DNA of 21,128 nt. Source: a virus. The stretch lies in IMG/VR virus record IMGVR_UViG_3300031920_000452, positions 1 through 21,128 of that record, one strand, 5' to 3'. Shown here one piece after another: positions 2,986 through 21,128 of the stretch; positions within the stretch are counted from its first letter, which is position 1; each line of letters begins with the position of its first letter. The notes beneath the pieces are model-generated. The model saw only the letters and a program-made list of their open reading frames with translations, did not search any database and had not been told where the DNA came from. The position numbers and the translations under genes are program-made.

Positions 2986-3027
2986 AATTGTACTCCTTTG
3001 AAAGTTGAATCAAATTATATTTTTCCC

Positions 3028-3044: not shown

Positions 3045-3084
3045 AAAAATACAGAAAATGGCTATAAAATCAAAAAATTGCCTT

Positions 3085-3123: not shown

Positions 3124-3156
3124 AAATTCCTAATATTTATTTCTACTGATGTTTGT

Positions 3157-4176: not shown

Positions 4177-4202
4177 TTTGATTCTCCTTAGTAATTTCCA
4201 AC

Positions 4203-4254: not shown

Positions 4255-4269
4255 ATACATTTTTATTGT

Positions 4270-4713: not shown

Positions 4714-4801
4714 TTTAAAACCCTCCGATTGTTCTATTTAAATTGTATTTTGTTTAAATTGTTTTTATTTCAATCTCTATTATTTCGCCAAAAAGCTTGA
4801 A

Positions 4802-4861
4802 CTCTTCTAAAAGAAGCCTATTTCTTCTGAAAGAAGCCTTATTTCTTTTCAAAGAAAGCCT
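4802..4861 (-). repeat. Three imperfect ~21-bp tandem repeats, each self-complementary
   Basis: On the minus strand three imperfect units follow one another: AGGCTTTCTTTGAAAAGAAA, AGGCTTCTTTCAGAAGAAAT and AGGCTTCTTTTAGAAGAG. The first encodes the end of the scaffold protein (KAFFEKK-stop); the next two are non-coding copies after the stop. Each can fold into a small hairpin (for example CTTCTTTCAGAAG). They may act as a weak terminator or RNA-processing signal, or may just be duplicated coding sequence. Confidence 0.6.
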
Positions 4862-6752: not shown

Positions 6753-6776
6753 AATGTACACATCCTTGCAGAAAAG

Positions 6777-8492
6777 TTATTTTTGGTCGCCGGACATTTC
6801 CGCAAACTCTGTCATAAGGGAACTGACACAAGAAGCCCAAGCCTTATCCTCTATACCTTTAACGGCTACTGGCCCAGGGGCCTTGCCGGTCTTTTCTTTA
6901 TATTCGGCTATGCTATTTTTAATTGTATCGCTCACTAGTTTATTAAGCTCTTCTGGTGCGTTTTCTAACCGATTGGCTATATCCATTCCGGTAGGCTTTG
7001 TCTCTCTCTCAATTTCTTGCTTTTTGGTATCTCCAAGAGGACGACCAGACCCCGGCTCTCCAAGTGCATCGTCATCTCTTTTGAATGGACCTCTCTTAGT
7101 TATAGTTCCATCCTCTTCCAGCTTATTCTCTCTCTTAATTCTTTCAACTTCAACATCTATATTTTCTCCGATATGTTTCAATGATGTTTCCATGCTGAGA
7201 GCTCCGCGATCAAGCATATCTTTGATAAGCTTTTTCTCTTGGGCTTCATCTCTGAGTGATATTGTATCAATTCTGACTTCTGGATATGTTCTAAATCCAA
7301 GCGTATCGGCTACATATCTTGTCTCTTTTGTCCAAAATTCTATCGCGTTTTCTTGTCCCGTCTTGATTTTCTCTGCAACAGTTTTGACTTGAAGAAACGA
7401 ATTACTAAAATTAGAACCATCGCCATTGACCAAAATTTCTGGAACCCCAAGACCCGACAAAATATCAGCATTAACACTCTCATATTTTTCAGATCCAAGA
7501 ATATCTTTTACCGGTAAGTGTATATTTTCAACTTCTAAATTGTTATCCCACATAACATTAAGGGATGGAGAACTACCACTAATAACAGCAGCAAGTTTTT
7601 TGAATAGCTTTCTTGTCGCCGGAAATTCATCAGACCCAATTTTGAATAAAGTAATTACATTTATAACTGAATCCATAGCCGCCTTATCCATTTCACGAAG
7701 CTTTAACTTGAAATTCACATCATGAATTGACGGATATATCATCGGAATCGCCCATCTATTCCAATCGCTCTTTTTGTATTGCATAATAAAAACTTTTTCA
7801 GTCTCTATCTTTTTTCTACCATCTTTATCTACTTTAGATCCGAGGTATCTAGCAAACTCTTTGTCTGTTGATTCGTTTGATGCGTATTTTCTTGAATAAG
7901 AACTTCCTTTTAATGAGGCGTTTTTTAAATAATATTCTCTATTACCGAGAATGTCGTCACCTTCAATATCAACAGCTCTTGGGTTTATAGATCTATAACC
8001 AATAGGGATTTGCACTTGCCGTTTTGAACCCTGTATGATAGTGTCCATATCACCAAGAACTCTATAAATAATAACATTTGAAGTTTTATAAAATTCTGTC
8101 AAAAATGTATTTGTTCGAGATGTGCTTGAAACCTTCTGACTCCACATATCATAGAATCTTTGAATGCTATTGCTTTTATGTACGAATTCTATACCGTTCG
8201 CAGAAAAATCGCCGAGCATATCTACGATATTTTTCATAAAAGAAACGCTTGAATACATCTCTTGCGAAGCTTTTAACATGCTTAAAATATACTGATCGAC
8301 ATTTTCGTACTTAATCTTATATTCGCCAGAATTTATTCCCTCTGTATGAATATCTCTTTTGAGATTCGCTCTCGCAAATTTAAGAATATCTTCTGTAGCG
8401 GCCTCTAATTCGAGTGGTCCAGATGTAACATTAACATCCGAAGTTTTTACAATAGCTTTTCCTTCTTTTTTACTTACTTTTTTAATAGCCAT
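6777..8492 (-). CDS. Portal protein (571 aa)
   Basis: This protein forms the dodecameric ring at the head vertex through which DNA is packaged and to which the tail attaches. It starts at ATG 8492 with a modest GGAA site seven bases before the ATG. At 571 residues it is in the normal portal size range. Features typical of phage portals include a helical N-terminal region with a VDMLGDFSANGIEFV segment around residue 87, ADILSGLGVPEILVNGDGSNFSN around 343 to 366 (the conserved portal G-x-P-x-x-L turn), and a long helical stem region (VKTVAEKIKTGQENAIEFWTKE). The hydrophilic tail, with FKRDDDALGEPGSGRPLG, is also common near portal C-termini. It directly follows terminase, in the usual order, and has its own promoter copy 54 bases upstream. 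No membrane segments are present. Confidence 0.85.
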   Translation of the reverse strand: MAIKKVSKKEGKAIVKTSDVNVTSGPLELEAATEDILKFARANLKRDIHTEGINSGEYKIKYENVDQYILSMLKASQEMYSSVSFMKNIVDMLGDFSANGIEFVHKSNSIQRFYDMWSQKVSSTSRTNTFLTEFYKTSNVIIYRVLGDMDTIIQGSKRQVQIPIGYRSINPRAVDIEGDDILGNREYYLKNASLKGSSYSRKYASNESTDKEFARYLGSKVDKDGRKKIETEKVFIMQYKKSDWNRWAIPMIYPSIHDVNFKLKLREMDKAAMDSVINVITLFKIGSDEFPATRKLFKKLAAVISGSSPSLNVMWDNNLEVENIHLPVKDILGSEKYESVNADILSGLGVPEILVNGDGSNFSNSFLQVKTVAEKIKTGQENAIEFWTKETRYVADTLGFRTYPEVRIDTISLRDEAQEKKLIKDMLDRGALSMETSLKHIGENIDVEVERIKRENKLEEDGTITKRGPFKRDDDALGEPGSGRPLGDTKKQEIERETKPTGMDIANRLENAPEELNKLVSDTIKNSIAEYKEKTGKAPGPVAVKGIEDKAWASCVSSLMTEFAEMSGDQK

Positions 8493-8546
8493 AAGTTTCC
8501 ATTATTAAATTTGTTTAAAGAATTAGAAGGAGGGCTATTTTCCGCC

Positions 8547-8563
8547 TACTATTATATACACGA
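8547..8563 (-). promoter_or_regulatory. Phage-specific promoter copy 3, upstream of portal
   Basis: This is the third perfect copy of TCGTGTATATAATAGTA (minus strand); it also shares flanking bases (TT before, GG after) with copy 1. It lies in the 96-base gap between terminase and portal, 54 bases before the portal ATG. Upstream of it is an A/T homopolymer-rich stretch (8568..8595) with no recognisable -35 box. It should drive the portal/head operon independently of the terminase transcript. Confidence 0.82.
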
Positions 8564-8588
8564 AATTTTTATTTTTTTTTATTTTTTT

Positions 8589-11570
8589 TTATTTTTGCTC
8601 AATAAATTCTTCCATCCATCCACCTATATCATCACTATCGTCATATCTTGGAACAATACCGGCAGATGATTCTACGGCAGATGCAGCATAATTTGCCAAT
8701 AACAATGCACTATATAAGTCCTTACGCCCCTTGATCTTACGCTTATTTTCACCGTCATTTATTACGGATGTCGGAACGTCGAAATGTGCGAGTCCAGACT
8801 GAGTTAATGACAACTGAACACTCATAACCTGTTTTGCTAAAGTATCGATATCTTCGTATGCATTTTCAATCTGAATGGACTTTCCTCCCTGTCTTGGGAA
8901 TAATATCCGTCTATGTTGAAAATCTCCCTGTAAATCATTATTCGCTTTTAATATCCACTGCGAAGAAAAATTTACCATCTCCATTATATATCTTCCATCC
9001 TCACAATTAGGCTTCAATAAAGACTCTTCGAAAATTCTTGGCTGTTCTTTCATAATATCCTTATTGCTTAAATAGCTGTTTATGGTCCAACCACCACCAC
9101 CAGCATCGACTGCAACGCGACGAACATCATAAGACATAAAAAGTCCCTTGATTATGGCTATTGCCTCAGTATAATTAAAATCCTCTATACAGATAGCTCT
9201 GATTATTTTTCTATAATCACTCCCAACTCTTATAATGACAATTCCTCCAACAGCCTCTTTCCCACCAGAACTAGGATCAATACCCATAACGCAAACATCT
9301 CCATCATTTGATCGTGTCTGTGCGTAAAATTGATCACCAGAATTAGAGTTTTCATAGTTACATTTTCTTAAATCTGCATACTTAAAAAATCCATCTGAAT
9401 TTCCTTGAAACTCGCAAAGCAACTCCATTGCAAAAGAACTTTTACTCATCGTTAATCTTGCTTGGCTTATTTGTTTTTCGTCCATATATCCGCGTGGCAG
9501 ATTTTTAAAATTCAAATGATATACAATGTAATCTGTATAATCAACATATTCTGCTCCAACCGCATCGCTTCCAGCGTTACTAACAGACCCCTTATATTTA
9601 CCATTTATAATGCCAAGATATTTTGAATATGTTCTATAAAAATGATTCTCCATAAACCAAGCAGTCCCAAACAGACAAATCTGATTTGAAGATAATCTCA
9701 ATTCTGGCGGAACTTCTTTTCCCTGTCTTCTTAATTCTTGTATTTTTGCGACAACCTTAACTCTCTTAACTGGATCGGCGGCAACAGACGCGAAGTTTCT
9801 TACAACAACCTGAAAAATATCATAATCTATACTCGCGAATTCATCGACCAGAACCCTTGTGGCTCTCATACCTCTAACGCTCGATCCATCACCTAGCGGA
9901 ATCGCTTTAATTGAAGATAACCCTATAATGAGTTCTGCTGTCGTCGTTCCCTTAGTAGGTCTTTTTGGAGCAATTCTTCTTAATATTGGGGCTCTATTAT
10001 ATATTTTGATAATCTCATCGAAAATAAGAAGAGAGTTGTGATTCAGAAATCCAGAAGCAAAATACCGAGAACTATTCGCAACTTCAATGTCATGTGTAAT
10101 ATTTTTTTTATTCTCAACTTTTACGATTTCATCATTGAATACTTTTTCAATAGAATATAGAGATAATAATTCTTCTATTTTGTATTCTTTGGCTATTTTT
10201 TTTACTCTCTCTATAGGGATTCTTTTTGATCTTACAAATTCTCCCCAAGTATGATATGAGACACCGTTATCGAGAAATATCTTTCTTAGTTCGTCTGTGA
10301 GATCGATAGAATCTCTATGCTTCGTCCTTCTCATTTTAACACCAACAGTTGAAGATAGATCTTTGTGATATGTATCAAGACCAAAAATCGAAGAAAATTT
10401 ATCGCAATCTTCCTTCATTCGGATCTCTATCTTTACAGAAGATTTTTTAATAATGAGTTTGCTTATTATGCCGAAGTTGAGCAAGAGCATATGAATCAAT
10501 TTATGAGCTTCGAGATTAGATCCTGGGATAACAACAGTTGGAACTTTTGTTTTTTTGTTGATCTTAATAGAGCAGATACTTTCAAAATAGGATCTTAAAA
10601 ACTCAAGAACAATGTTTCGATCTGACTCAAGTATAAATTTTGGAATCTTCCTCTCGGTAAAATCGAAATCATTACACTTGAAAAAATTATAAATAAAATC
10701 GTCGTCTATTTTGCATTCTGTTCTTTTGCCGTTTTTGACTATTGTTGACTTGGTATTAAAATACTTTTTGGCAATCTTTGAAAAATCAGAAACAAAAGAT
10801 CTTTCTTTCGAGTGAAATTTAAGTCCGACATCCTGAACGACGCAGAATTTAGAAAAAAGCTTTCCTACGAACCATGCAATATCCTCATTAACAACATCTG
10901 GCTGTTTCATTTTTCTTCTTGTATTTTCTGGTCCTTCCAACTTATCGAATTTACATCTCTTCTTCGCGAAACAATCTTGACCATAATATATCTGAATTGT
11001 ATCTCCAGAAGATAATCCCTCAATCTTTTTCCATTCGCCACCGACTAAAACTCTATGCCCCTCAGCTCCCTCTTCTGAATACCCGTTTCTGGTAGTGATC
11101 TTAATAGTTATCTGCTCTTCGTTGACCCATTTGTTTTTAACTTTATTTCTTCCGCCCATATCTTCAATAACAGTGCCTTTTACCAAATCTTCGAATCTTT
11201 TTATTCCGTCCTCTGTAAAAAAAACTGCATCTCCAGTAAGACACTGCCGATAGCTTTTTGAAACAAGTACAATTTTAGACCCTTGATCTACAATCGAAGT
11301 GCAGAGTGCATATAGGGCATAAATAAAAGATTTTCCGAGACCACGACTCCCAACTAATAACGGAAAAGATTTATGATACATTGATGTTAGAATATAATTC
11401 TGGAATGGAAAAATTTCTGTATTCAATACATACTTACAGAGAATACCAAAATTAGAAATACAAAGTTGCGCAAATTGCTCGCTAAGAGGATTCTCAACAA
11501 CGTCCGGCAAATAAAAGATATTATCAGTTCTAAATTGTGCTGGTTCAAGAATCAACGGAATTCCCCCCAA
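8589..11570 (-). CDS. Terminase large subunit, intein-containing precursor (993 aa)
   Basis: This is the ATP-driven DNA packaging motor and headful or cohesive-end nuclease. The N-extein (residues 1 to 109) has Walker A, GSRGLGKS, at 74 to 81. The C-extein (513 to 993) has Walker B, RVLVDEFASID, with D576 and E577. The RNase H-like nuclease domain shows three candidate metal-binding acids: D765 (VMGIDPSSGG), D822 (VAVDAGGGG) and D951 (GRKDLYSALLLA). Excision of residues 110 to 512 leaves 590 residues, a normal terminase length. The frame overlaps the nuclease gene upstream by 26 bases if it starts at TTG 11570. A TTG at 11555, preceded by a G-run (GGGGGGA), is an equally plausible start. No small terminase subunit is visible. 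The gene ends just before the portal promoter. Confidence 0.93.
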   Translation of the reverse strand: MGGIPLILEPAQFRTDNIFYLPDVVENPLSEQFAQLCISNFGILCKYVLNTEIFPFQNYILTSMYHKSFPLLVGSRGLGKSFIYALYALCTSIVDQGSKIVLVSKSYRQCLTGDAVFFTEDGIKRFEDLVKGTVIEDMGGRNKVKNKWVNEEQITIKITTRNGYSEEGAEGHRVLVGGEWKKIEGLSSGDTIQIYYGQDCFAKKRCKFDKLEGPENTRRKMKQPDVVNEDIAWFVGKLFSKFCVVQDVGLKFHSKERSFVSDFSKIAKKYFNTKSTIVKNGKRTECKIDDDFIYNFFKCNDFDFTERKIPKFILESDRNIVLEFLRSYFESICSIKINKKTKVPTVVIPGSNLEAHKLIHMLLLNFGIISKLIIKKSSVKIEIRMKEDCDKFSSIFGLDTYHKDLSSTVGVKMRRTKHRDSIDLTDELRKIFLDNGVSYHTWGEFVRSKRIPIERVKKIAKEYKIEELLSLYSIEKVFNDEIVKVENKKNITHDIEVANSSRYFASGFLNHNSLLIFDEIIKIYNRAPILRRIAPKRPTKGTTTAELIIGLSSIKAIPLGDGSSVRGMRATRVLVDEFASIDYDIFQVVVRNFASVAADPVKRVKVVAKIQELRRQGKEVPPELRLSSNQICLFGTAWFMENHFYRTYSKYLGIINGKYKGSVSNAGSDAVGAEYVDYTDYIVYHLNFKNLPRGYMDEKQISQARLTMSKSSFAMELLCEFQGNSDGFFKYADLRKCNYENSNSGDQFYAQTRSNDGDVCVMGIDPSSGGKEAVGGIVIIRVGSDYRKIIRAICIEDFNYTEAIAIIKGLFMSYDVRRVAVDAGGGGWTINSYLSNKDIMKEQPRIFEESLLKPNCEDGRYIMEMVNFSSQWILKANNDLQGDFQHRRILFPRQGGKSIQIENAYEDIDTLAKQVMSVQLSLTQSGLAHFDVPTSVINDGENKRKIKGRKDLYSALLLANYAASAVESSAGIVPRYDDSDDIGGWMEEFIEQK
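10035..11243 (-). other. Intein in terminase with degenerate LAGLIDADG endonuclease (403 aa)
   Basis: This in-frame insertion encodes residues 110 to 512 of the terminase precursor. Splice block A begins with Cys1 (CLTGDAVFFTEDG). Block B is GAEGHRVLV with His63; the usual Thr three residues earlier is Ala. Block F is ITHDIEVANSSRYFASG, and block G is GFLNHN with the penultimate His and terminal Asn. The next residue is Ser, as required for splicing. The join restores SKSYRQ-SLLIFDEI. The central part is LAGLIDADG-like: DIAWFVGKLFSKF (about 121 to 133) and VLEFLRSYFESIC (about 212 to 224). In both, the position of the catalytic acid seems replaced (Lys and Ile). Self-splicing is therefore likely, but homing activity is probably lost. 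The insertion point lies 28 residues after the Walker A motif. Confidence 0.92.
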
Positions 11571-12045
11571 AATAGACTTCTGCTTTAACGAGAATATCTT
11601 TAATTATCTTTGCTGATGTTCTTTTATCTCCAGCAAAAATAGGAATGACATTCAGCTTATGCTTCATACTGAAACTTAATAGTTGAGCGATAATATTTGC
11701 GCCATAGGGCATTGTCATTATCGTCTTCCCACCCTTACGAATAAAATTCCCGACATAAATTTCGCTTAACTCTTCCTCTATAACGATATAGAAAAATTTA
11801 ACTCCTGCTTCATAAGCCCTATCTAATTCCGCCAAAAATCTTTTCCTGTTTCTGCCAAGAGTCCCAAATAAATCCGTTTTCGTTTTTCTTTCTATTACAA
11901 CAAGGTTTTTTAATTTCTCTGTTGTGTAGTCCGCGAACTCCATTTTCTTTCTTATTGTCCCATCGACAAACTTTAGCATAGAAAAATCAACGGGACGACT
12001 TTCTCTTGTATCAACTATGATCTCTATTGATTTTCTTTTATCCAC
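11545..12045 (-). CDS. ERCC4/XPF-type nuclease (166 aa)
   Basis: This is a small single-domain nuclease of the ERCC4 (XPF/Mus81) fold that should cut branched or single/double-strand junction DNA. It starts at GTG 12045, with TAGGAG seven bases upstream and one base after the preceding stop codon. Visible motifs are IIVDTRESRP (residues 9 to 18, Asp12), MEFADYTTE (Asp39, in place of the usual GDY), and VVIERKTKTDLFGTL with the signature ERK at 52 to 54 and Asp58. RNRKRFLAELDRA then gives the basic helix. There is no helix-hairpin-helix domain, unlike cellular XPF. It overlaps the terminase frame, so translation is probably coupled. By analogy with HNH nucleases beside terminase in HK97-like phages, it may assist packaging or resolve branched replication DNA. 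Recombination is the alternative role. Confidence 0.88.
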   Translation of the reverse strand: MDKRKSIEIIVDTRESRPVDFSMLKFVDGTIRKKMEFADYTTEKLKNLVVIERKTKTDLFGTLGRNRKRFLAELDRAYEAGVKFFYIVIEEELSEIYVGNFIRKGGKTIMTMPYGANIIAQLLSFSMKHKLNVIPIFAGDKRTSAKIIKDILVKAEVYFGGNSVDS

Positions 12046-12046
12046 G

Positions 12047-12775
12047 TCACACTCCTATTGCTTTTATGTTGTTATTTTCGTTATTCTCTATTAACCCATG
12101 AATACTACACTGGAAGACTGTTATCTCTCCCAACGAAGATAGCATATTTATTTTTTCAAGACTTACTTCATCTGCATAAGTCAGAATCTTACACCATTCT
12201 ACGGGGGATATTTTTGTCATTCTATATTTGTCATTGTATGCTTCGTCGTTGACACTTAATCCTCCTCCATTCGTAAAAGAAAGAACAACTAATCTTGACG
12301 CATCCATTGTTACACGACTAAGACCTTCCATTATTCTATAAATTTCTTCCTCTGAATAATATTCAAGAATTGCAGAAGCAAAAACAACATTAAATTCATC
12401 TTCTTCAAAATATTCTGGTAGATTTAAAATATCTCCGCAAACAACCTTACTTTTAATATCTGGAGCACACACATTCTCAATCGCGTAATCTGATATATCA
12501 ACGCCTTTTGTATTTACACCTGAATCGTTTAACATCTTAACGAGATATCCGAATCCGCATCCAAGATCTAAAGCTTTTATGCCACCTTTAAAAAGACCAA
12601 CTCTTGAATAAAGTTTTTCTATCTCTTTCATAACGCTGATTAAACAGGAATATGATTTCCTATAGTTGTCGAGCGTTAGACCTTCTTCGTTATAATAAGA
12701 GATATCTCTATTCGTGAAATATTCCTTATTGAATAATTCTCTTTTTGTTTTTTTGAACTTATTCTCAAGATTCAA
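12047..12775 (-). CDS. SAM-dependent class I methyltransferase (242 aa)
   Basis: The predicted role is methyl transfer from S-adenosylmethionine to a small molecule, sugar or glycan. It starts at TTG 12775, supported by an excellent GGAGGGAG site six bases upstream; the codon overlaps the preceding stop (TATTGA). Rossmann methyltransferase motifs are clear. Motif I is ALDLGCGFGYLV at residues 68 to 79, the ribose-binding acid lies in GVDIS (Asp93), then come VVCGDILNLP (111 to 120) and FNVVFASAILEYYSEEE (128 to 144) as motif IV/post-IV. The length and layout are those of UbiE/Methyltransf_11-type enzymes. Its position at the end of the sugar cassette suggests O- or N-methylation of the glycan, although its neighbour on the other side is the nuclease/terminase pair. 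The substrate is unknown. Confidence 0.85.
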   Translation of the reverse strand: MNLENKFKKTKRELFNKEYFTNRDISYYNEEGLTLDNYRKSYSCLISVMKEIEKLYSRVGLFKGGIKALDLGCGFGYLVKMLNDSGVNTKGVDISDYAIENVCAPDIKSKVVCGDILNLPEYFEEDEFNVVFASAILEYYSEEEIYRIMEGLSRVTMDASRLVVLSFTNGGGLSVNDEAYNDKYRMTKISPVEWCKILTYADEVSLEKINMLSSLGEITVFQCSIHGLIENNENNNIKAIGV

Positions 12776-13920
12776 TATTGGCTCCCTCCAAATAGATAAT
12801 TTAACCTATTGTTCATTTTTTTAACAGCGTCCTTCCAAGTCCAATTGTTTACCATATCTAACCTGGCAACGATCCCAAGATCTATCCCTTTTTCTCTATT
12901 ACTGTAAAGATATTTCATCTTATCGATCAAATCATCCTCAGATGGATCAGCCCAATTTTGACCAGCATAGGATGGATGTCTTGAATAAAACGAAGCTGGA
13001 ACCGGCACTATCTTGTAGTCGAGCAGTAGGCTGTTTGACGTATTCATAAACTCTGTGTTTCCAGACCACCCAGTCGATATAGTCGGCAATCCGGTAGCCA
13101 TCGCCTCAGATGCTGTCAAAGACCAACCTTCGCCGGAAGAACATGAAACATAGGCATCTAACGTCGCGTAAAATTCTGGTATCTGTGAGTCTGGAATAAT
13201 ATTAGAAATAAGATAAACCTTTGGAAAATCTTTAACATCGACACTTTCCTTGCATTCCTCTATTCTGTCAACCATATATTTTAAAGATTCACTGACTGGA
13301 TGCTGAAAATATGATTTTAATAAAAGAACAACATCTTTTCTGCCATCAAAAGCTTTCCAGTATGCTTTTAATAATAATTCTGGATTCTTTCTGTCCGTCC
13401 AGTCGAAATTGGCGCCAAAAACATACGTGTCTTTAAAATGTTTCTTAAACTTTTCGAATCCTGCATTCATAGGAGAGAATTTGTCAGTATCGACTCCATG
13501 AGGAATCACAGTTATCGGTCTATTAATTCCGGCACTCCTAAACGCACTCTGTCCAAATCTTGTATATGTCCAAATCTCATCCATCGCTTGCATTTTCATA
13601 ACCCAATCATTCGGCAAACCATCTGTTTCGAATGTGGTCATTCCAATATGATATGGAATACTTTTATCGTAAACAAAAATATTCGGAGTTAAATTTTGGA
13701 CAAAGCAATCTGATTTCTCATTGTCGGAAACTATCATTTCTCTGACTTCTGGGAATTCCTTGGATAAAGAAACAAGTTTTCCATTAAAGAAATTTCTCGG
13801 AATTAACCTAACATTTATCTCTTCACTATGATATTTGGATAGATTGCTTAAATAGGATCTTGTGCAAGACCCGTACCCAGAACAATCTTTTGCGCTTCCA
13901 GACCAAACAACATCTATCAT
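12772..13920 (-). CDS. Glycosyltransferase, GT4-type GT-B fold (382 aa)
   Basis: This enzyme should transfer a sugar from a nucleotide-sugar donor with retention of configuration. It starts at ATG 13920 with GGAGAAG five bases upstream and is one base from the preceding stop. The N-terminal domain (about 1 to 155) binds acceptor. The linker ITVIPHGVDTDKFSP (136 to 150) is typical of the family. The C-terminal donor domain runs from TYVFGANFDWTDRKNPELLLKA to the signature SSGEGWSLTASEAMATGLP (261 to 279), which includes the EX7E pair Glu264 and Glu272. No membrane segment is present. It is one of three glycosyltransferases in the cassette and the only GT-B one. The acceptor may be a host surface glycan or a virion protein. 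The family call is strong; the substrate is unknown. Confidence 0.9.
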   Translation of the reverse strand: MIDVVWSGSAKDCSGYGSCTRSYLSNLSKYHSEEINVRLIPRNFFNGKLVSLSKEFPEVREMIVSDNEKSDCFVQNLTPNIFVYDKSIPYHIGMTTFETDGLPNDWVMKMQAMDEIWTYTRFGQSAFRSAGINRPITVIPHGVDTDKFSPMNAGFEKFKKHFKDTYVFGANFDWTDRKNPELLLKAYWKAFDGRKDVVLLLKSYFQHPVSESLKYMVDRIEECKESVDVKDFPKVYLISNIIPDSQIPEFYATLDAYVSCSSGEGWSLTASEAMATGLPTISTGWSGNTEFMNTSNSLLLDYKIVPVPASFYSRHPSYAGQNWADPSEDDLIDKMKYLYSNREKGIDLGIVARLDMVNNWTWKDAVKKMNNRLNYLFGGSQY

Positions 13921-13921
13921 T

Positions 13922-14782
13922 TTATCTTCTCCGATCTTTTATTATATTAGAATTAAACAAAGCTTCTATTACATCACTTGGCTTAAATCCAAATTCGCCA
14001 GCAATTATATCGACACCCCTTTTAAGTCCATGAAATTGACAGAAAAGCCAAATTTTGCTTTTGAGTCTCTCGTCGTCACTTGGTAGAGCCTGACCTCTCG
14101 ATAGAATAAGTCTGCATAAGTCCTTCATTATGTTATCTTCAAATAATATTGCAGCATTGCTCTGTACGCAATGACCCCCAATTGGACCATCAACATGATT
14201 AAGAATTGGTCTTACGACATTCTCCATTCCGAGTTTCTTATATCCGTAATTATAAGTCTCTGTCCAGTCTCTGTAAGCAATATCATAATCAATCTCTAAT
14301 TTGTCGCATTCTTCCTTCATCATTTTTTCAAATGCAATCTCCATGCCGTATCTGGTTGTAGACATGAGCTTCGAAAATTCTAACGTCTTTCTCTTCTCAA
14401 CACATCTCGCATTTAATCCTAATCCAACAAGGTAGACCCTCAATTCTTCGTTTATCGGCGCCAAATATTTTACAAAAGTTCTAATCCCATCCTCTAAATT
14501 TGGATGAACTCCGCGAATCGGAGAATAATACGCATTACATAGATCGGAAGTTCCAATTTTAACGGTAGAATGAATTATTGTGTATTCTGGCTGATATTGT
14601 TCTATATATTTATTTACAATAGAAACAAAATTATCAGAATATGGAATACAAATATGTAGAATAAAAATATTGTCTATACTAAGTGGCTCTATGTCTTTAA
14701 TGAATGTGTCGGGTTCGGCTTTTTTAATAATATTATATACAGCCTTACCTACTTCTCCACCGCCAATAATTAAATTTCGCAT
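13922..14782 (-). CDS. Compact UDP-sugar 6-dehydrogenase-like oxidoreductase (286 aa)
   Basis: It starts at ATG 14782 with AAGGAAA upstream. The N-terminal Rossmann motif is LIIGGGEVGKAVY (4 to 16). HSTVKIGTS (71 to 79) and RGVHPNLEDGIRTF (90 to 103) match positions conserved in NDP-sugar dehydrogenases. TLEFSKLMSTTRYGMEIAFE (133 to 152) corresponds to the helix carrying a catalytic Lys (Lys138 here). GPIGGHCVQSNAAIL (199 to 213) matches the catalytic-Cys segment of the UDP-GlcNAc/ManNAc dehydrogenase group (GGHC, Cys205). The usual C-terminal UDP-binding domain is missing: 286 residues against about 400 to 430. It may therefore act on a smaller or different substrate, or have lost activity. 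It would feed an acidic sugar to the neighbouring glycosyltransferases. The family assignment is fair; the reaction is inferred. Confidence 0.72.
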   Translation of the reverse strand: MRNLIIGGGEVGKAVYNIIKKAEPDTFIKDIEPLSIDNIFILHICIPYSDNFVSIVNKYIEQYQPEYTIIHSTVKIGTSDLCNAYYSPIRGVHPNLEDGIRTFVKYLAPINEELRVYLVGLGLNARCVEKRKTLEFSKLMSTTRYGMEIAFEKMMKEECDKLEIDYDIAYRDWTETYNYGYKKLGMENVVRPILNHVDGPIGGHCVQSNAAILFEDNIMKDLCRLILSRGQALPSDDERLKSKIWLFCQFHGLKRGVDIIAGEFGFKPSDVIEALFNSNIIKDRRR

Positions 14783-14794
14783 AAGATTTCCTTG

Positions 14795-15916
14795 TTAAAT
14801 TAGGTTTCTATCAACATTGTCATTAACAAAAAAGTTATTAAAAAACTTATCATATCCATAATTACTACATCGGATATTGCATTGTGGTCCTTTTCCATCA
14901 CAATTCAATATATTTCTTACGATATTAACATGTTTGGACGACCCCCAGGCTTCTTTTAGCGCCATCCACCCATCAGTTCCACAATCACACAATAATGTTT
15001 TCTCGTCGTATCTTCTGTCTACACACGGCCAACATTTTCCATCAGATGTCATCGTTACAGTCAGCGGTGTTAAATGGCAGTACTTTGGAAGAACCTTTTT
15101 AAAATCATCTGTAAACTTATGCCTTACTCCAACAATCTCAAAAACGCCTTCTTCGTTAAAATCATCCATCGCCCTCATTATTTGACTATTAACTTCAAAG
15201 ATATTTATTTGAGCTCTTTCATCTGCCGGTAAATCGGCTGGTCTGATCTGAACGTATGAAGTTCCAAGATCTTTTGCTATACGACATGCTTCATAAAGAG
15301 TCTTGTATGTATCTGGCAAAATCAAAAACTTAAAACCTATGTCTTTCCTTATCTTATTTTTATCTACAGATTTAACTAATTTTTCGATATTCCCAAGAAC
15401 TTTTTCCCAAGCGTCTCTTGGTGCGTTTTTGCATTTTAAATAAGATTCCTTCGTTCCTGCGTCCATAGATATTCCAATAAATTTTGTATAAAACGTTGAG
15501 TATTCAATCATCAAATCGCTAAAAGCATATCCGTTTGTCACGAGCCCCATTTCTACACCAGAAAAGAAAACAGACCGAAGTAATTCATGCAACCTCGGAT
15601 AAAGAAGCGCATCTCCCTTACTGCCAACACAACAAATAGCCTTTATCTTTTGACCGTTCACATCCCAATGCTGTAAAAAATAAGGAAGAGTCTCAAGTAG
15701 CCTATCTGATAAATCTGGCAACGATCTATCTCCTATTTGTTTCCGTCTATGATGACAATGATTGCATCTATACTGACATCGGCCTGTAACGTCCAAATTC
15801 AATACAATTGGCGGTAAATACATCTCGTTCACTATTGCTTCCATCCTATCGCCATGCGCCAAAATTTTCTGCGAGTTAAATGGATTATACGGGTTGTCCC
15901 ACTCTCTTGTTCCCAT
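14795..15916 (-). CDS. Radical SAM enzyme with SPASM/twitch C-terminus (373 aa)
   Basis: It starts at ATG 15916, with AGGAGAT six bases upstream. The radical SAM cluster motif CxxxCxxC is CQYRCNHC, with Cys47, Cys51 and Cys54. The core barrel follows, with AICCVGSKGDALLYP (GGE-like region), MGLVTNGYAFSD and FIGISMDAGTKESYLK. The C-terminal part is Cys-rich: KYCHLTPLTVTMTSDGKCWPCVDRR, LLCDCGTDGW and CNIRCSNYG. This matches a SPASM or twitch auxiliary iron-sulphur domain. Such enzymes perform dehydrogenation, epimerisation or peptide modification by a 5'-deoxyadenosyl radical. In this cassette, between a glycosyltransferase and a sugar dehydrogenase homologue, a sugar-modifying role like that of BtrN-type dehydrogenases is plausible. 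Modification of a ribosomal peptide is less likely because no precursor gene is visible. The substrate is unknown. Confidence 0.88.
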   Translation of the reverse strand: MGTREWDNPYNPFNSQKILAHGDRMEAIVNEMYLPPIVLNLDVTGRCQYRCNHCHHRRKQIGDRSLPDLSDRLLETLPYFLQHWDVNGQKIKAICCVGSKGDALLYPRLHELLRSVFFSGVEMGLVTNGYAFSDLMIEYSTFYTKFIGISMDAGTKESYLKCKNAPRDAWEKVLGNIEKLVKSVDKNKIRKDIGFKFLILPDTYKTLYEACRIAKDLGTSYVQIRPADLPADERAQINIFEVNSQIMRAMDDFNEEGVFEIVGVRHKFTDDFKKVLPKYCHLTPLTVTMTSDGKCWPCVDRRYDEKTLLCDCGTDGWMALKEAWGSSKHVNIVRNILNCDGKGPQCNIRCSNYGYDKFFNNFFVNDNVDRNLI

Positions 15917-15927
15917 TCTGTGATCTC

Positions 15928-16689
15928 CTAACTATTCACTTCGTCAAATTTGATATTTGTATATCCCCAATTCTCATTATTTTTTTTAAGTTTTAAATTT
16001 TCTTTATTCGCTCTTGGTTCATCCCTCTTACTCCTTGACTCTTTTGCGTAATCGCTATCATCATGATGGTCTACGTGCCAAATTTCAAAATTCCAAAGAG
16101 GAATCGAGGTAGATCCTTTTTCAATAATATCAACTGCAAACATCGTATCGGAACACCCACTTATTTCTCCAATCCTGAATCCATTCACGGAAAACGCAGA
16201 CTTCTTATCCACCAACATAAAATCTCCAGTTGCACCCATTGCAGACGCAGGCTTTTTACACCTCACAACTCCCTCTTTTGTTATATGGAGTTTTGATCCA
16301 AAATATATCTTTTTCTTATCTATGCTCTTTAATGGGAAGCTATTACAAAAAATAATATCTGGATTACCTATTACTAAAAAATCACTATTTGCTCTTGCAA
16401 CTCCAATATTTTTGGCAACATACTCCATAACACCAAATTCTGATTTATCTGTTATCGTTTTATGAAATTCATTTGGGACAATTATCCATCTAATACCTTC
16501 AGTGTCAATCTCTTCATGTAAATGCTTCCTATCTTTTAGATTATTATATTCTACAAATATAATTTCAAGATCAAAATTAGAGAAAGACGATCTCACACTA
16601 CCAAAAAAACTTTTAATTCTATTTGAGTTATCAGAAATATAGTCATCATTTCTTCCACTTACAATTACAGAAAGTTTCTGCTTAGACAT
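15928..16689 (-). CDS. GT-A-fold glycosyltransferase, GT2-like (253 aa)
   Basis: It starts at ATG 16689, with GGAGGT six bases upstream, and overlaps the previous gene by eight bases. The N-terminus LSVIVSGRNDDYISDN is the nucleotide-binding strand of family-2-type transferases. VAKNIGVARANSDFLVIGNPDIIF (residues 91 to 114) is the diagnostic helix plus donor/metal-binding strand, with NPD at 109 to 111 in place of a strict DxD. GATGDFMLVDKKSAFSVNGF (152 to 171) and GEISGCSDTMFAVDII match the acceptor-side segment of GT2/galactosyltransferase-like domains. FEIWHVDHHDDSDY, near 201 to 214, may supply a metal-binding His. No membrane anchor is present, so it acts in the cytoplasm. The last 35 residues are Lys/Glu-rich. 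Donor and acceptor are unknown. Confidence 0.82.
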   Translation of the reverse strand: MSKQKLSVIVSGRNDDYISDNSNRIKSFFGSVRSSFSNFDLEIIFVEYNNLKDRKHLHEEIDTEGIRWIIVPNEFHKTITDKSEFGVMEYVAKNIGVARANSDFLVIGNPDIIFCNSFPLKSIDKKKIYFGSKLHITKEGVVRCKKPASAMGATGDFMLVDKKSAFSVNGFRIGEISGCSDTMFAVDIIEKGSTSIPLWNFEIWHVDHHDDSDYAKESRSKRDEPRANKENLKLKKNNENWGYTNIKFDEVNS

Positions 16690-17656
16690 TAAAATACCTC
16701 CAGTCGTAACTATTAAACGTATCTACAAACTCACTCATAATAGATCCAGAAAGTTCCTTTTTAACAGACTCTATATTCTCTCTCGCCGGATCGTGGCAAA
16801 AACCCCATTTTTTCAAAAAAGAACTATGGGCAATATCTCTATATTCTCTTATCATCGCAGCAGACCTTGTGCTAGGATTTATATAATTTGACCTATGATG
16901 CTCTGTTAAAAATTCAGGTATCCAACAATTATAATATCCAGACTTCATTGCTTCTATATTGTAATCTAGTTCGTTGAGAAGCGTCCAGGGTGTCCAATCT
17001 TCAATTTTCGAGATATTGGACGCATTCTCTGTTTTCAATACCATAACAGCAGACCATGATGAAAATATCTTGACAGGTCCGCTTGGATAATCAAGTAGTG
17101 CTTCCTCGCTCTCTGTCCATTCACTGTAAATCTTTTCCCTTCCCCAGTTATCAGGAAGATTATGAAACTGAAAAGCAACACCCTTATTCCAAGCTCCATC
17201 CAAAACATCTTTATAAAAACCATCTCTACAAGGTGTTATTGGAGATCTTGTTTTCTTATATGTTGTACACGTTGATGTTATTACTCCTACATTATCAATA
17301 TTTTTAACATTTTTCTCTATAATATTAAACCAACTATCGCAACGAATAAAAACATCGTCATGAAATATAGCGATGTATTCGAATTCACCCTGAGCAAAAT
17401 CTATCGCATCATTTATATCTTTAGCCCAAGATCCAATACTATCCTTCAAAACGACATTTTCGTTAGAAGATTCAATTTGTTTTGCTAAAAAAGAAACATC
17501 ACCTAAAACATTATTCTCGTCTAAGTAAATCAAGTGAATAAACTCAGATATATCTAATCCAACGTTCTTATATATAGTTTCAAAAGACGTTGAAAATACA
17601 AAAGAGTCTGAAAGCTTAGAAGACAATGTTTGAACAATTAATAATTTTTTACTCAT
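16682..17656 (-). CDS. Probable GT-A-fold glycosyltransferase (324 aa)
   Basis: It starts at ATG 17656, with a GAGGGAAAT site directly upstream, seven bases after the previous stop. FEYIAIFHDDVFIRCDSWF (residues 92 to 110) is the donor/metal-binding strand of a GT-A fold, with HDD at 99 to 101 serving as the DxD-like element. The preceding SWAKDINDAIDFAQGE helix matches the usual helix that precedes it. IFSSWSAVMVLKTENAS (near residue 194) and WTLLNELDYNIEAMKSGYYNCWIPEF resemble the acceptor and C-terminal segments of GT2-like enzymes that act on saccharides. EHHRSNYINPS provides a His-rich motif after this. It has no signal peptide or membrane segment. It overlaps the next glycosyltransferase, so the two may be translated together and build successive linkages. 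The family is inferred from motif shape. Confidence 0.72.
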   Translation of the reverse strand: MSKKLLIVQTLSSKLSDSFVFSTSFETIYKNVGLDISEFIHLIYLDENNVLGDVSFLAKQIESSNENVVLKDSIGSWAKDINDAIDFAQGEFEYIAIFHDDVFIRCDSWFNIIEKNVKNIDNVGVITSTCTTYKKTRSPITPCRDGFYKDVLDGAWNKGVAFQFHNLPDNWGREKIYSEWTESEEALLDYPSGPVKIFSSWSAVMVLKTENASNISKIEDWTPWTLLNELDYNIEAMKSGYYNCWIPEFLTEHHRSNYINPSTRSAAMIREYRDIAHSSFLKKWGFCHDPARENIESVKKELSGSIMSEFVDTFNSYDWRYFNV

Positions 17657-17663
17657 ATTTCCC

Positions 17664-18266
17664 TCAAAATGGCTGAAAATTTATATGATTGTCAATTCCA
17701 ACAAAAATAAATACAGCACCAACACCTACATTTGCAAGCCCATATTCGGATCTCTGATTGTACCTTATATCTCTGACATCAGAATTAGACAAAAACTCTG
17801 AAATGTACTTTATATCGCTAACTCCATTATATTTCAAATTCAAATTTTCTGACTTAAAATCGTGTATGCATAAAACAAATTGTTTGAAGCCTCTATTCTG
17901 TATAACTAAAAGTTCGTCATCCAAAATTAAGCTTCCGCTTTTATTCCCGCAGTTAGCATCAAGAAAAAATAATCCTGCTCCATTTAACTCTTCAATATCG
18001 TCAATCATATCTACCGACGGGCAATTTGAAAGTTTTACGTTTTTATTCTTATCGGCATTAAGAAATTTTATAGAAGAATTGAAATAATTAGCATCAACTT
18101 CTGCTCCGTACAACTCAACACTTGGATATTTCTCGCTTATTTTTTTTAGTATATATGCATCACGAAAACCTGTTTCAATGTAGGTTGTTATTTTAAAATT
18201 CTCTATTATTGACAAAAAAGAATCAACTAAAAACTTATCATATTGTCTTTTTTCGCTATCTTCCAT
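17664..18266 (-). CDS. Class I methyltransferase-like protein (200 aa)
   Basis: The start chosen is ATG 18266, which shares its A with the TGA stop of the preceding gene and has GGGGGAAG upstream. A GTG at 18269 is also in frame. TTYIETGFRDAYIL (27 to 40) has the ETG form of the SAM-binding loop, LYGAEVDANYFNSSI (52 to 66) gives the ribose-binding strand, and GLFFLDANCG (98 to 107) is motif IV. QFVLCIHDFKSEN (129 to 141) provides a further strand and His-Asp pair. This pattern recalls hypothetical methyltransferase-like proteins associated with glycan clusters, where an E-TG loop and FFLDAH-type motif occur together. The catalytic residues cannot be verified. Context suggests modification of a sugar or of a glycosyltransferase product. 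A non-catalytic binding role is possible. Confidence 0.65.
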   Translation of the reverse strand: MEDSEKRQYDKFLVDSFLSIIENFKITTYIETGFRDAYILKKISEKYPSVELYGAEVDANYFNSSIKFLNADKNKNVKLSNCPSVDMIDDIEELNGAGLFFLDANCGNKSGSLILDDELLVIQNRGFKQFVLCIHDFKSENLNLKYNGVSDIKYISEFLSNSDVRDIRYNQRSEYGLANVGVGAVFIFVGIDNHINFQPF

Positions 18267-19141
18267 CACTTCTTCCCCCTCAACCTATTTCTGTCTTTTT
18301 CGCCAGACTTATACAAAACCTTTTCTTCAGCTCCGAGTCCAGCGATAATATTTTCTGACTTCCTAATCAATAAATCCATCTCTGAAATCTCAAGAGAATT
18401 GCTTTGGTCTGACCCCCATGATTCTTTATCGAGAGTAATGTGCTTTTCTATAATATCAGCGCCTAGCGTTATTGAAACCAAAGATCCATCGATCCCAACG
18501 TCATGTCCGCTATAGCCAAAAAAACTTGAAGAAGAAAATAACTCTTTCATTTTAGGGATAAACCGAATATCTAATTCCGAGTTCATCGCTGGATATGCAG
18601 AATTACACTGCAATAAAGAGAAACTGCAAGATTCTTTTTCCATTACGGAAACAGCAACCTCAATTTCTTCAATAGAGCTCATTCCAGTTGAAAGAATAAG
18701 ATGTATCCCAGACCTCGCCGCCTCTGTAAGCAACTCTATATTATGAAGGTGTGCGGACGGTATCTTTATGAAAGGGACTTCATATTGCAGTATGAAATGT
18801 AAACTTGGGAGATCCCACACAGATACAGTCCAATCTATCGGCTTTTCCCTACAGTATTTATCTATATAATCATATTCAAGCTTGTCAAATTCGGTTATTT
18901 TTCTATAATCTATATACGGCATGATACCCCAAGGGGTATCTTTTGGCTTCTGTTTTTGATCTTCTGGAACACAGAGATCTGGAGTTCTCTTTTGAAACTT
19001 TACACAATCCCAACCACAAGAATAAGCAGCGTCTATTAATTTCTTTGTCTTTTGCAGATCACCACAATTGTTCACGCCCACTTCAGCTATGAAATATGGT
19101 GTCTTTATATTGTTAAAATCAAACTTTGAATTATTTTGCAC
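18266..19141 (-). CDS. NeuB-type nonulosonate (sialic acid) synthase homologue without SAF domain (291 aa)
   Basis: The family condenses phosphoenolpyruvate with an amino sugar to form a nine-carbon acid (sialic, legionaminic or pseudaminic acid). The start is a GTG at 19141, with GGAG six bases upstream; the frame continues back to a TTG at 19153 without a ribosome site. The TIM barrel motifs are TPYFIAEVGVNNCGDLQKTK near the N-terminus, CGWDCVKFQKRTPD, PFIKIPSAHLHNIELL, LILSTGMSSIEEIEVAV, FSLLQCNSAYPA, FFGYSGHDVGIDGSLVSITL, and IIEKHITLDKESWGSDQSNS (the C-terminal substrate loop). The protein ends soon after, so the SAF/antifreeze-like domain found in cellular NeuB (about 340 to 350 residues) is absent. 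It overlaps the preceding radical SAM gene by 11 bases. The product is probably used by the downstream glycosyltransferases. Confidence 0.87.
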   Translation of the reverse strand: MQNNSKFDFNNIKTPYFIAEVGVNNCGDLQKTKKLIDAAYSCGWDCVKFQKRTPDLCVPEDQKQKPKDTPWGIMPYIDYRKITEFDKLEYDYIDKYCREKPIDWTVSVWDLPSLHFILQYEVPFIKIPSAHLHNIELLTEAARSGIHLILSTGMSSIEEIEVAVSVMEKESCSFSLLQCNSAYPAMNSELDIRFIPKMKELFSSSSFFGYSGHDVGIDGSLVSITLGADIIEKHITLDKESWGSDQSNSLEISEMDLLIRKSENIIAGLGAEEKVLYKSGEKDRNRLRGKK

Positions 19142-20189
19142 AGTATTCTCCAATTAGTTTCATATCACACTGACTCGTACATTTAATTTTTTTCTTCATA
19201 TTGAAATGCCAGAGTCTGAACGCTTTATATTTTTGCCCATTCCAGATGTCATATAAAGACTCTTTTCTTACATCTCCTAAAACAATTTCATTATTAAAAT
19301 CCTCTACACACTGACAAGACTCGCCATTGGATTTTATAGTCATAGACGACCAAGGGAATTGACAAAATTCGGTCCAGTGAATCGATTTCGTACCCTCATT
19401 TTTATTTTGATACCACTGCTGATCCTGGCTCTTTAAATAAATATAGACATCTGTACCAGAAAATTTTTCTTTAAGCTTCTCAAAGTCTTCGATCTGACCT
19501 TCTCTTTTGAGGTCTAACATTGTAATAACAATTGTTGTGTTCAGTCCTCTTTTATCCTTTTCATTTATCAATTTCATTATCTTTTTATATGATTTTGTAA
19601 AATCGGAAGCACTCCCTCTAATCTTCTTATGTGTTTTATCGTTAACGGATTCAATAGAAAATTTTATATAATCAAGACCCTCTTCAAAAATATCTATAGT
19701 TCTATTATTTATTAGGGCCGGATTACTACTAAAATATGATAACATATTATTGTCTGTGGCACACTTTATTTTATCTGGCGCGAATTTGTCTATTAAGATT
19801 TCTCCATATGAATGAAATTGTATTACTTTTGGAATAATATATAAGAAAAAATGATTCTCGCTCATTTCGTCTTCTTTAATCCCATAATATCTCGTCGCAA
19901 AATCTCCCCAATCAGACCACTCTTTTTCAGTCCAAGGTCTTAATTGTTCCATAACTTTTCTAATCGTTCCAACGTCAAGATCTACCAACTCTCTCGTCAT
20001 CATGGTTGTTCTGGGGCACATTTCGCATTTCATTGGACATCGGTTCGTCGGCTCTATATTATAAACAACTGGGTGTTCAGATCTAGCGGTTTCGAGAATA
20101 TCAAAGAGACAGCTCTTGCTGATTTTCTCTCCAAGAACAAGTCTTTCTTTGAGGTGGGCTATTTTTTGATAAAAATTTATGTCTATCAT
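19131..20189 (-). CDS. Radical SAM enzyme with SPASM-like C-terminus (352 aa)
   Basis: It starts at ATG 20189, one base overlapping the preceding stop (TAATG), with GACGGAAAA upstream. The radical SAM cluster motif is CPMKCEMC (Cys51, Cys55, Cys58) after VVYNIEPTNR, the usual first strand. VIQFHSYGEILIDKF supplies the GE-containing strand, and DYIKFSIESVNDKTHKKIRG the following barrel strand and helix. The C-terminal region, FCQFPWSSMTIKSNGESCQC through CTSQCDM, carries the SPASM pattern, including the GDV-xxx-SLYDIWNG segment common in this class. A 30-residue insert (residues 85 to 115) lies between the first and second strands. It belongs to a different subfamily from the enzyme at 14795..15916. 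Its neighbours, a PLP aminotransferase and a NeuB homologue, suggest sugar or aminosugar chemistry. The substrate is unknown. Confidence 0.88.
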   Translation of the reverse strand: MIDINFYQKIAHLKERLVLGEKISKSCLFDILETARSEHPVVYNIEPTNRCPMKCEMCPRTTMMTRELVDLDVGTIRKVMEQLRPWTEKEWSDWGDFATRYYGIKEDEMSENHFFLYIIPKVIQFHSYGEILIDKFAPDKIKCATDNNMLSYFSSNPALINNRTIDIFEEGLDYIKFSIESVNDKTHKKIRGSASDFTKSYKKIMKLINEKDKRGLNTTIVITMLDLKREGQIEDFEKLKEKFSGTDVYIYLKSQDQQWYQNKNEGTKSIHWTEFCQFPWSSMTIKSNGESCQCVEDFNNEIVLGDVRKESLYDIWNGQKYKAFRLWHFNMKKKIKCTSQCDMKLIGEYCAK

Positions 20190-21128
20190 TATTTTCCGTC
20201 CCTAAGAAGCTTTACTTCTTTTATTGTTTTCATAAGCGCGTCTGCTTTTACAGTGCAAAGTTCTCTATTTCTATAATTTGTTTTAAATTGAATAAGTTTT
20301 TTTTGTAATTCTATTGCGACAGGACAAAGCTTTTCCCAATTATATTTTCCTACGATATCTTTATCAACAAAACTCATGTAACTTTTATTTGTAATCGCTG
20401 GCTCTAAAAATATCGGCTTCCATGCTCCGTAAAAACCATCCCCACCGTTTTTTATATACAGCTTGCGAAAATCATGCCAAGACATACCAGCCTTATCTTC
20501 ATCAAACAAACACCCAAAAATCCAACAAGAATGAGGATTGAGAAAATCAACTGCCTGGCTCGTTAAGAAATCTGCATTTTTTACTTCAGCAGAAAAAGAA
20601 TAAGATGACAGACTTCTAGCGTCAAGCAATTCCTCTATCGATTCGAGCTGTCCAAGGGCTATCGCAGAAAGAAATTCGGACAATCTATAATTATAACCGA
20701 CTTCCGTATGTCTGAAATAGTCTGGAGACTGAAATTCGTCATCGTTAAATCTTGTCCTGCCGTCTTCTGCTGTTGAATTTTTAAAACCGTGATTCCCAAA
20801 CTTTCTAGCAAATTCTGCAACAAACGGATCATCAGTACAGACCACCCCTCCCTCGCCGCAATTCAAGAGCTTCGAGCTCTCTAAAGAAAAAATCGCCACA
20901 TCTCCAATGACAGACATACCCCTGTATAAACACTGAGCATTGTCCTCTATAACAAACTTACCGTTCTCTTTGGCGTATGCTACTATCTCTTCAATATATG
21001 ATCTCTTATGGAGCCCGTACAGGTTTACTATTACAATACCTGAAATATCTGGGTCTTCATCTATTCTTTTTTTGATACTTTCAAAATCTATAATGAAATC
21101 GTCCTCCCGTACATCTGCGAAAATTGGA
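20189..21128 (-). CDS. DegT/DnrJ/EryC1-family aminotransferase, 5' end outside window
   Basis: This is a PLP-dependent sugar aminotransferase of the DegT/DnrJ/EryC1/StrS family. The frame is open to the window edge; about 70 residues precede the internal ATG at 20917, which is not the true start. Family motifs are in order: ISGIVIVNLYGLHKRSYIEE, then FVIEDNAQCLYRG, then GDVAIFSLESSKLLNCGEGG. The Lys in SSKLLNCGEGG corresponds to the Schiff-base lysine of the family's SFHxxKxxxxGEGG motif. The later segments YFRHTEVGYNYRLSEFLSAI and LGQLESIEELLDARS match the substrate-binding region. The 3' half is complete, ending at 20189. It is upstream of, and overlaps by one base, the radical SAM gene. 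It would make an amino sugar for the cassette. Which nucleotide sugar it uses is not visible. Confidence 0.9.
   Translation of the reverse strand, partial: PIFADVREDDFIIDFESIKKRIDEDPDISGIVIVNLYGLHKRSYIEEIVAYAKENGKFVIEDNAQCLYRGMSVIGDVAIFSLESSKLLNCGEGGVVCTDDPFVAEFARKFGNHGFKNSTAEDGRTRFNDDEFQSPDYFRHTEVGYNYRLSEFLSAIALGQLESIEELLDARSLSSYSFSAEVKNADFLTSQAVDFLNPHSCWIFGCLFDEDKAGMSWHDFRKLYIKNGGDGFYGAWKPIFLEPAITNKSYMSFVDKDIVGKYNWEKLCPVAIELQKKLIQFKTNYRNRELCTVKADALMKTIKEVKLLRDGK

Follow-up and report, generated by a model that had tools for sequence, protein, structure and literature searches.

Gene content of the locus

The virus record IMGVR_UViG_3300031920_000452 of IMG/VR is a linear fragment of 21,128 bases, which is analysed here as a whole and referred to as the window. 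Ten consecutive open reading frames (ORFs) on the minus strand fill positions 12,047–21,127 and run straight into the genes for an ERCC4-type nuclease and the terminase large subunit (TerL), just as the initial annotation had described (Table 1). At the upstream end are a DegT-type aminotransferase, a radical S-adenosylmethionine (SAM) enzyme that we call rSAM1, and a NeuB-family synthase. The analysis supported the earlier proposal that a cassette for sugar synthesis, with a NeuB-type core for an acidic sugar, adjoins the packaging genes. The DegT ORF, the tenth, is open at the contig end and is thus incomplete, and genes further upstream lie beyond the window.

The genes are tightly packed. 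Counted from DegT on, the intergenic gaps in the cassette are −1, −23, −4, 7, −8, 11, 12, 1 and −4 bases, followed by 1 base to the ERCC4 ORF, which itself overlaps TerL by 26. The many overlaps noted earlier were found (5 of 9 junctions), but the largest gap is 12 bases and exceeds the limit of 11 that had been given. A Shine-Dalgarno-like AGGAG that belongs to the ERCC4 gene is located inside the last codons of the preceding methyltransferase gene. The guanine-cytosine (GC) content is similar across the whole window, and no minus-strand terminator-like sites were found in 8,400–21,128 by a scan that itself performed at chance level.

Six of the ten functional labels that had been assigned to the cassette gained profile support from Pfam, namely DegT, both radical SAM proteins, NeuB, the group 1 glycosyltransferase (GT) and one methyltransferase. 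Among the other four, the UDP-sugar dehydrogenase was sub-threshold, and two glycosyltransferases and one methyltransferase had no profile support.

Table 1. Cassette and packaging genes in the window, listed from the contig end towards the portal gene
Gene product	Coordinates	Strand	Basis
DegT/DnrJ/EryC1-type pyridoxal phosphate (PLP) sugar aminotransferase, 5′ end missing	20189..21127	-	PF01041 4.9e-30; PLP-lysine region SKLLNCGEGG
rSAM1, radical SAM with one-cluster 'twitch' C-terminal domain (BtrN/DesII-like)	19131..20189	-	PF04055 + PF13186
NeuB-family synthase, SAF-less subtype	18266..19153	-	PF03102 1e-62
201-aa protein, earlier methyltransferase label unconfirmed	17664..18269	-	no profile match
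324-aa protein, GT-A-like by eye (HDD motif), unconfirmed	16682..17656	-	no profile match
253-aa protein, glycosyltransferase-like by eye, unconfirmed	15928..16689	-	no profile match
rSAM2, second radical SAM with twitch-like C-terminal cysteines	14795..15916	-	PF04055 5.5e-10
Short UDP-sugar-dehydrogenase-like protein	13922..14782	-	PF00984 E 0.014, below cutoff; Rossmann + GGHC motifs by eye
GT4/group-1 glycosyltransferase	12772..13920	-	PF13692 2.5e-9; phrog_2170 2.5e-31
Class I SAM methyltransferase	12047..12775	-	PF08241 1.6e-11; phrog_27380
ERCC4-type nuclease, first gene of conserved packaging block	11545..12045	-	PF02732 2.4e-7; phrog_3490
Terminase large subunit with in-frame intein (aa 110-512)	8589..11570	-	phrog_2, Intein_splicing, LAGLIDADG_3
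Portal protein	6777..8492	-	phrog_2739; 30% to kin L162

rSAM1 resembles the amino-sugar enzymes BtrN and DesII

Across 45 homologues of rSAM1, the only invariant cysteines were C51, C55 and C58, which form the CX3CX2C cluster motif of the radical SAM site, and C276, C294, C337 and C341, which are predicted to bind a single four-cysteine auxiliary [4Fe-4S] cluster in the twitch arrangement. A full SPASM domain, with two auxiliary clusters or seven cysteines, was rejected for rSAM1 despite the PF13186 match, because only four C-terminal cysteines are conserved. A four-cysteine twitch pattern, and not a full SPASM, was also seen in rSAM2, the other of the two radical SAM/SPASM enzymes named in the initial annotation.

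When a profile of rSAM1 was compared with solved structures, the best match in the PDB was BtrN (4.5e-12). The AlphaFold2 (AF2) model of rSAM1 had a pLDDT of 93, and Foldseek placed BtrN first (8e-10) with DesII also high. The VIA Z scores of the model against DesII (18.9 over 281 residues), SuiB (18.2) and BtrN (18.1) are ties. Taken together, the sequence, the conserved cysteines and the high-confidence model put rSAM1 closest to BtrN and DesII, both of which act beside DegT aminotransferases in their pathways. DesII is a TDP-4-amino-4,6-dideoxyglucose radical deaminase that is paired with the DegT enzyme DesI; it gave the highest VIA Z score, but the relationship is remote (14% identity) and the window is without NDP-deoxysugar genes. 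BtrN, the 2-deoxy-scyllo-inosamine dehydrogenase of butirosin synthesis, carries out a two-electron oxidation of an amino-cyclitol and has a four-cysteine auxiliary cluster (PMC9012708). It shares the CX3CX2C motif and the four auxiliary-cluster cysteines with rSAM1, which however is about 100 residues longer, is only 16–22% identical in structural alignments, is linked to NeuB instead of inositol chemistry, and is known here from sequence and a model. On this basis we lean slightly towards rSAM1 being a sugar oxidase of the dehydrogenase type.

None of the curated NCBIfam radical SAM families shown (e.g. TIGR04317 and TIGR04311) reached its cutoff for rSAM1. The name of a tungsten-oxidoreductase maturase (TIGR04317), which was listed first in the profile search, was rejected at 56 bits versus a cutoff of 380. 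Among 5.39 million open papers, none was found that combined 'radical SAM' with 'nonulosonic acid' or 'legionaminic acid', and 'radical SAM' and 'pseudaminic acid' co-occurred in five, all under titles unrelated to such a pathway. The rSAM1 kind is thus provisionally unnamed in the databases and open papers searched; subscription papers were outside this scope, which makes the word 'undescribed' provisional as well.

The window NeuB belongs to a short subtype

The window NeuB is 295 residues long, has the NeuB TIM-barrel domain and lacks a C-terminal SAF domain. It scored below the equivalog cutoffs, with 197 versus 399.7 bits for TIGR03569 and 154 versus 340.3 bits for TIGR03586. When it was aligned to 6ncs and 2wqp, H217, H238 and K52 were found to be kept, and the window enzyme retains the histidines that bind metal in solved NeuBs as well as their barrel lysines. 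In its motif KIPSAHLHN, a His takes the place of the Glu or Asp of the solved enzymes shown. The NeuBs linked to rSAM1 are mostly of one subtype that is SAF-less and has a KIPSA-X-L/I-T motif, and the short SAF-less type accounts for nearly all rSAM1-linked NeuBs as well as other viral NeuBs. The substrate therefore probably differs from the usual N-acetylmannosamine.

The core is a widespread module in cellular genomes

A search with rSAM1 alone gave 60 genome loci at 45–62% identity, which according to the record titles belong to 15 phyla or more. The carriers include the complete genome of Pelolinea submarina, and many others are metagenome-assembled genomes. The strongest recurring orders were HAD–SpsF–DegT–rSAM1–NeuB and SDR–NeuA–rSAM1–NeuB. 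Linkage was counted on the same strand and within 4 kb of rSAM1 in 65 loci (60 genome and 5 phage loci). NeuB was near rSAM1 in 55 of them, whereas the other partner varied: 19 loci had DegT only, 36 had SDR or Gfo/Idh/MocA only, and 3 had both. Fisher's test gave p 2e-9 for this exclusivity among the 58 tree rows with a pathway gene nearby, where related genomes are not independent, and the exclusivity is a pattern and not a proof.

A third setting, NeuB–HAD–thiamine pyrophosphate enzyme–Gfo oxidoreductase–rSAM1, was observed in six loci of unrelated bacteria (L127, L132, L140, L145, L148 and L150). The linkage has exceptions: in four Lachnospiraceae loci with close rSAM1 copies (L137, L138, L153 and L159), none of NeuB, DegT, SDR and Gfo was detected within 4 kb.

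In the rSAM1 tree, the phage copies did not form one clade (approximately unbiased test, p 0.019), and supported branches force at least two changes. The window rSAM1 was located outside a well-supported clade of the other phage copies and near sequences from Anaerolineae, Omnitrophota and Desulfobacterales. Judged from these sequences, the core is a module common among bacteria and archaea; phages captured it more than once, and it is not phage-born. The initial annotation had called the pairing of radical SAM enzymes with NeuB and DegT unusual in a phage and knew of no description of it; this agrees with the open literature, but the core is not unique to the window phage.

The core recurs in other phages, also among head genes

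NeuB relatives are common in viruses, with at least 538 viral stretches. Single-sequence scans of viral contigs with the window NeuB or the dehydrogenase-like protein gave no match, and alignments were needed. The order DegT–rSAM1–NeuB was found in IMG/VR 3300035698_004628 (L007), a T4-like phage with a T4-type DNA polymerase and SbcC, where an SpsF-type cytidylyltransferase is encoded directly upstream. In IMG/VR 3300001687_001099 (L087), the core lies between head genes (P22-type portal, 1e-125; major capsid protein (MCP), 9e-63) and a further phage gene; the order is kept but B12-binding radical SAM genes are inserted, and an SpsF-type cytidylyltransferase is again just upstream. IMG/VR 3300014656_001345 (L086) reads terminase–portal–MCP–SpsF–DegT–methyltransferase–rSAM1, after which the contig ends. 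The phages that share the core are unrelated, and in two of them, L087 and L086, it is inside the head-gene operon. rSAM1 was also present in three further phages, of which two have an SDR in place of DegT. The window DegT is 35–44% identical to the DegT of other phages.

The two B12-binding radical SAM genes of L087 (8,409–9,809 and 10,840–12,189) flank DegT, and similar genes were present in 15 of the loci examined. Their recurrence suggests that the same sugar may be methylated or undergo another radical reaction.

Candidate transferases are also encoded by phages that have this NeuB or rSAM1. GT29 sialyltransferases were found in L097 (6e-30) and in L002 (8e-32), the 484-kb uncultured phage LR756508.1, which has at least two GT29 genes (14,244–14,873 and 16,975–17,655) on either side of its NeuB. 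Such phages also encode MptE-like PF01973 proteins, a family that likewise includes the flagellin nonulosonate transferases of Maf type. By tblastn to an L096 protein, whose own Pfam score is 22.2 bits against a PF01973 cutoff of 34.6, an MptE-like gene lay no more than 300 bases from NeuB in 22 of 80 viral loci and was downstream of it in 21 of these. This company favours a sialic-acid-like product that would then be transferred to an acceptor.

A different cassette was seen in the Manatee Spring podovirus ctQWt234 (MW202801), where radical SAM, glycosyltransferase and methyltransferase genes stand shortly after the MCP gene, inside the head/tail operon. The gene types and the setting are like those of the window cassette, but the radical SAM protein is rSAM2-like (24%) and neither NeuB nor DegT is present.

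Remaining cassette genes

In rSAM2, cysteines C47, C51 and C54 and C280, C298, C346 and C350 are common to two distant phage homologues, and the Pfam SPASM domain was not matched. Its best genome relatives are 34% and 31% identical, and a search of viral contigs gave one distant match. The UDP-sugar-dehydrogenase-like protein is too short for a UDP-binding C-terminal domain, and its label rests on motifs because the AF2 model was unusable (pLDDT 39). No relative of it was found in 30 genomes that carry rSAM1 or in 285 genomes of one carrier's phylum, searched without a positive control. The 324-aa and 253-aa proteins had no match in Pfam, PHROG, NCBIfam or PDB sequences. Relatives of the former at 25–27% were found by tblastn in loci L105 and L015, and none in 301 genomes of another rSAM1 carrier's phylum, again in a search without a positive control. 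The 201-aa protein had no match in Pfam, PHROGs, NCBIfam, PDB sequences or phages. Relatives of the GT4 glycosyltransferase were present in 147 phage records.

The packaging block is conserved without the cassette

Kin of the window phage were found via the terminase, because PHROG annotation missed most of its structural genes. The terminase and portal are distant relatives of those of Bacillus phage Slash and Microcystis phage MaeS, and closer kin at roughly 30–40% identity were found in IMG/VR (L162, L165, L166, L183 and L184). In these five the terminase is followed in the same order by portal, a protease/scaffold-like protein, a small head protein and a likely major capsid protein. Ahead of the terminase, L164, L183 and L184 have an ERCC4 match, and L162 and L165 have an ORF of the size of ERCC4. 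No sugar cassette was present upstream of the packaging block in the kin stretches examined; in L162 and L165 a gene that by eye resembles a small terminase subunit precedes the nuclease instead, the L162 copy without a PHROG match. The ten-gene order beside the terminase, for which a search of viral collections had been proposed, was not found in any other phage examined, and on these comparisons it is specific to the window phage. Because the kin keep the packaging block without the cassette, the preferred interpretation is that the cassette was inserted where the packaging operon begins.

The window protein encoded at 4,839–6,761 (640 aa) is protease/scaffold-like; its similarity to Slash and MaeS proteins is clearest in the N-terminal part, and a long Asp/Ala repeat (DADADTDAD) is located close to the C-terminus. 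The TerL intein of 403 aa is in frame (CLTGDAVF...ASGFLNHN), contains a LAGLIDADG_3 domain and follows directly after the SKSYRQ motif. By eye, L162 has an intein-like insert in a ribonucleotide-reductase-like gene (2,949–5,438) and a LAGLIDADG-type gene after the portal (12,436–13,323), and L165 has several homing-endonuclease-like genes.

A proposed nonulosonate-type pathway and its alternatives

To explain the cassette we favour, with about even confidence, a phage-captured nonulosonate-type (sialic-acid-like) pathway that entered at the upstream end of the packaging operon, is expressed with it, and has the virion as its likeliest target. That the product is of nonulosonate type is the firmest part of this proposal and is considered likely. 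In the proposed pathway, rSAM1, as a twitch radical SAM enzyme, would oxidise a secondary hydroxyl group on a sugar to a ketone, as its fold, cysteines and partners suggest, and the adjacent DegT transaminase would convert the ketone to an amine. The SAF-less NeuB, by the function of its family, would condense the amino-aldose with phosphoenolpyruvate to a keto-acid sugar. The sugar would be activated by an SpsF-type CTP-dependent transferase, which is found beside the core in other phages and in bacteria and would here lie past the truncated end. The glycosyltransferases, rSAM2, the UDP-sugar-dehydrogenase-like protein and the methyltransferases may then extend, modify or transfer the sugar.

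We read the core as a variant of the known nonulosonate and phage-glycan systems that contains a radical SAM enzyme. With the nonulosonic acid pathways (Neu5Ac, NeuB/NeuA; legionaminic acid, LegI; pseudaminic acid, PseI; Bacillus subtilis SpsC-SpsE-SpsF) it has in common a NeuB-family synthase and a DegT aminotransferase, to which sister loci add a CTP transferase and a HAD phosphatase. It differs from them in the radical SAM enzyme, in a NeuB without the SAF domain and without the Glu/Asp of characterised enzymes, and in that no 4,6-dehydratase or hydrolysing epimerase is encoded in the window. Other phage glycan cassettes, such as those for mycobacteriophage capsid glycosylation (PMC12363180) and the glycan islands of marine phages, likewise have phage-encoded glycosyltransferases, some near structural genes. 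The mycobacteriophage cases, in which virion glycosylation has been demonstrated (PMC12363180), were described through glycosyltransferases, whereas the window carries a whole sugar-acid biosynthetic core.

Several observations weigh against the proposed pathway. No cytidylyltransferase, dehydratase or epimerase was found in the window, including a CMP synthetase beside NeuB, where the contig is truncated inside DegT, and GT29 and PF01973 genes are also absent from the window. The fold matches to BtrN and DesII are remote (about 12–20% identity), and RiPP enzymes (acting on ribosomally synthesized and post-translationally modified peptides) such as SuiB score nearly equally. The exclusivity of DegT and SDR/Gfo came down, on the well-supported branches of the tree, to only 5 phylogenetically independent pairs, about 4 of them in the expected direction (sign test p 0.125). 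Finally, codon usage differed mildly between the cassette and the packaging genes, with 5 of 300 random splits as large.

The target is the less certain part. Protein glycosylation of capsid or tail is put first, at somewhat below an even chance, since such genes occupy the late head/packaging operon in the window, in two further core-bearing phages and, as a different cassette, in one more; late expression is argued from the location of the core in three phages. The host envelope comes second, and we regard it as possible but doubtful that the same pathway puts its sugar there in the course of infection or lysogeny, which would prevent superinfection or imitate the host surface. The NeuB/DegT sets of cyanophage AG-345-L05, which lie within a long run of glycan genes, and that of L097, likewise in a glycan island, would fit a host-envelope target. 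The head/packaging operons of the window, L087 and L086 do not, as late expression leaves scant time for surface remodelling.

The chemistry of rSAM1 could also differ from a dehydrogenation, in that a DesII-like removal of the DegT-installed amine or a NeoN-like epimerisation would give a different deoxy- or epi-sugar before NeuB acts. DesII was the top VIA match and its known partner is the DegT aminotransferase DesI, but most bacterial loci pair rSAM1 with NeuB in the absence of DegT, which argues that the DegT product is not the general substrate of rSAM1, and we consider this unlikely.

An assembly chimera, in which a host glycan operon was misjoined to a phage contig, is very improbable. 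It would be consistent with the single 21-kb contig, for which an exact-junction search of IMG/VR gave no second copy (near-identical records may be hidden), with the codon usage and with the grouping of rSAM1 with bacterial sequences. Such a misjoin, which the initial annotation had named as what would overturn its reading, is disfavoured by the one-base gap between the methyltransferase and ERCC4 genes, the embedded Shine-Dalgarno-like site, the common strand, the similar GC content and the same core within structural operons of other phages. Hypermodification of phage DNA with a sugar, also raised earlier, appears least credible of all: phage glycosyltransferases often act on DNA (PMC12619734), but no thymidylate-synthase homologue, hydroxymethylase, base kinase or other base-modification gene was found within the window, and the core is a keto-acid pathway tied in other phages to sialyltransferase families.

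A broader and more speculative version of the nonulosonate-type proposal is that rSAM1 marks an undescribed branch of nonulosonate synthesis, in which radical SAM oxidation replaces the nucleotide-sugar 4,6-dehydratase as the source of the ketone. A DegT partner would then lead to an amino sugar and an SDR/Gfo partner to an epimer, in at least 15 phyla, and the branch would have been repeatedly captured by phages to coat their own particles. If this were true, sialic-acid-like sugars would be made in many organisms by a radical SAM route that is unnamed so far, and phages would carry this route in a late operon as a compact four-gene unit of SpsF-type transferase, DegT, rSAM1 and NeuB. Radical enzymology would thereby be connected with the glycans of bacterial surfaces and with virion glycosylation, and phages would be seen to contribute to glycosylation a complete sugar-acid pathway in addition to transferases.

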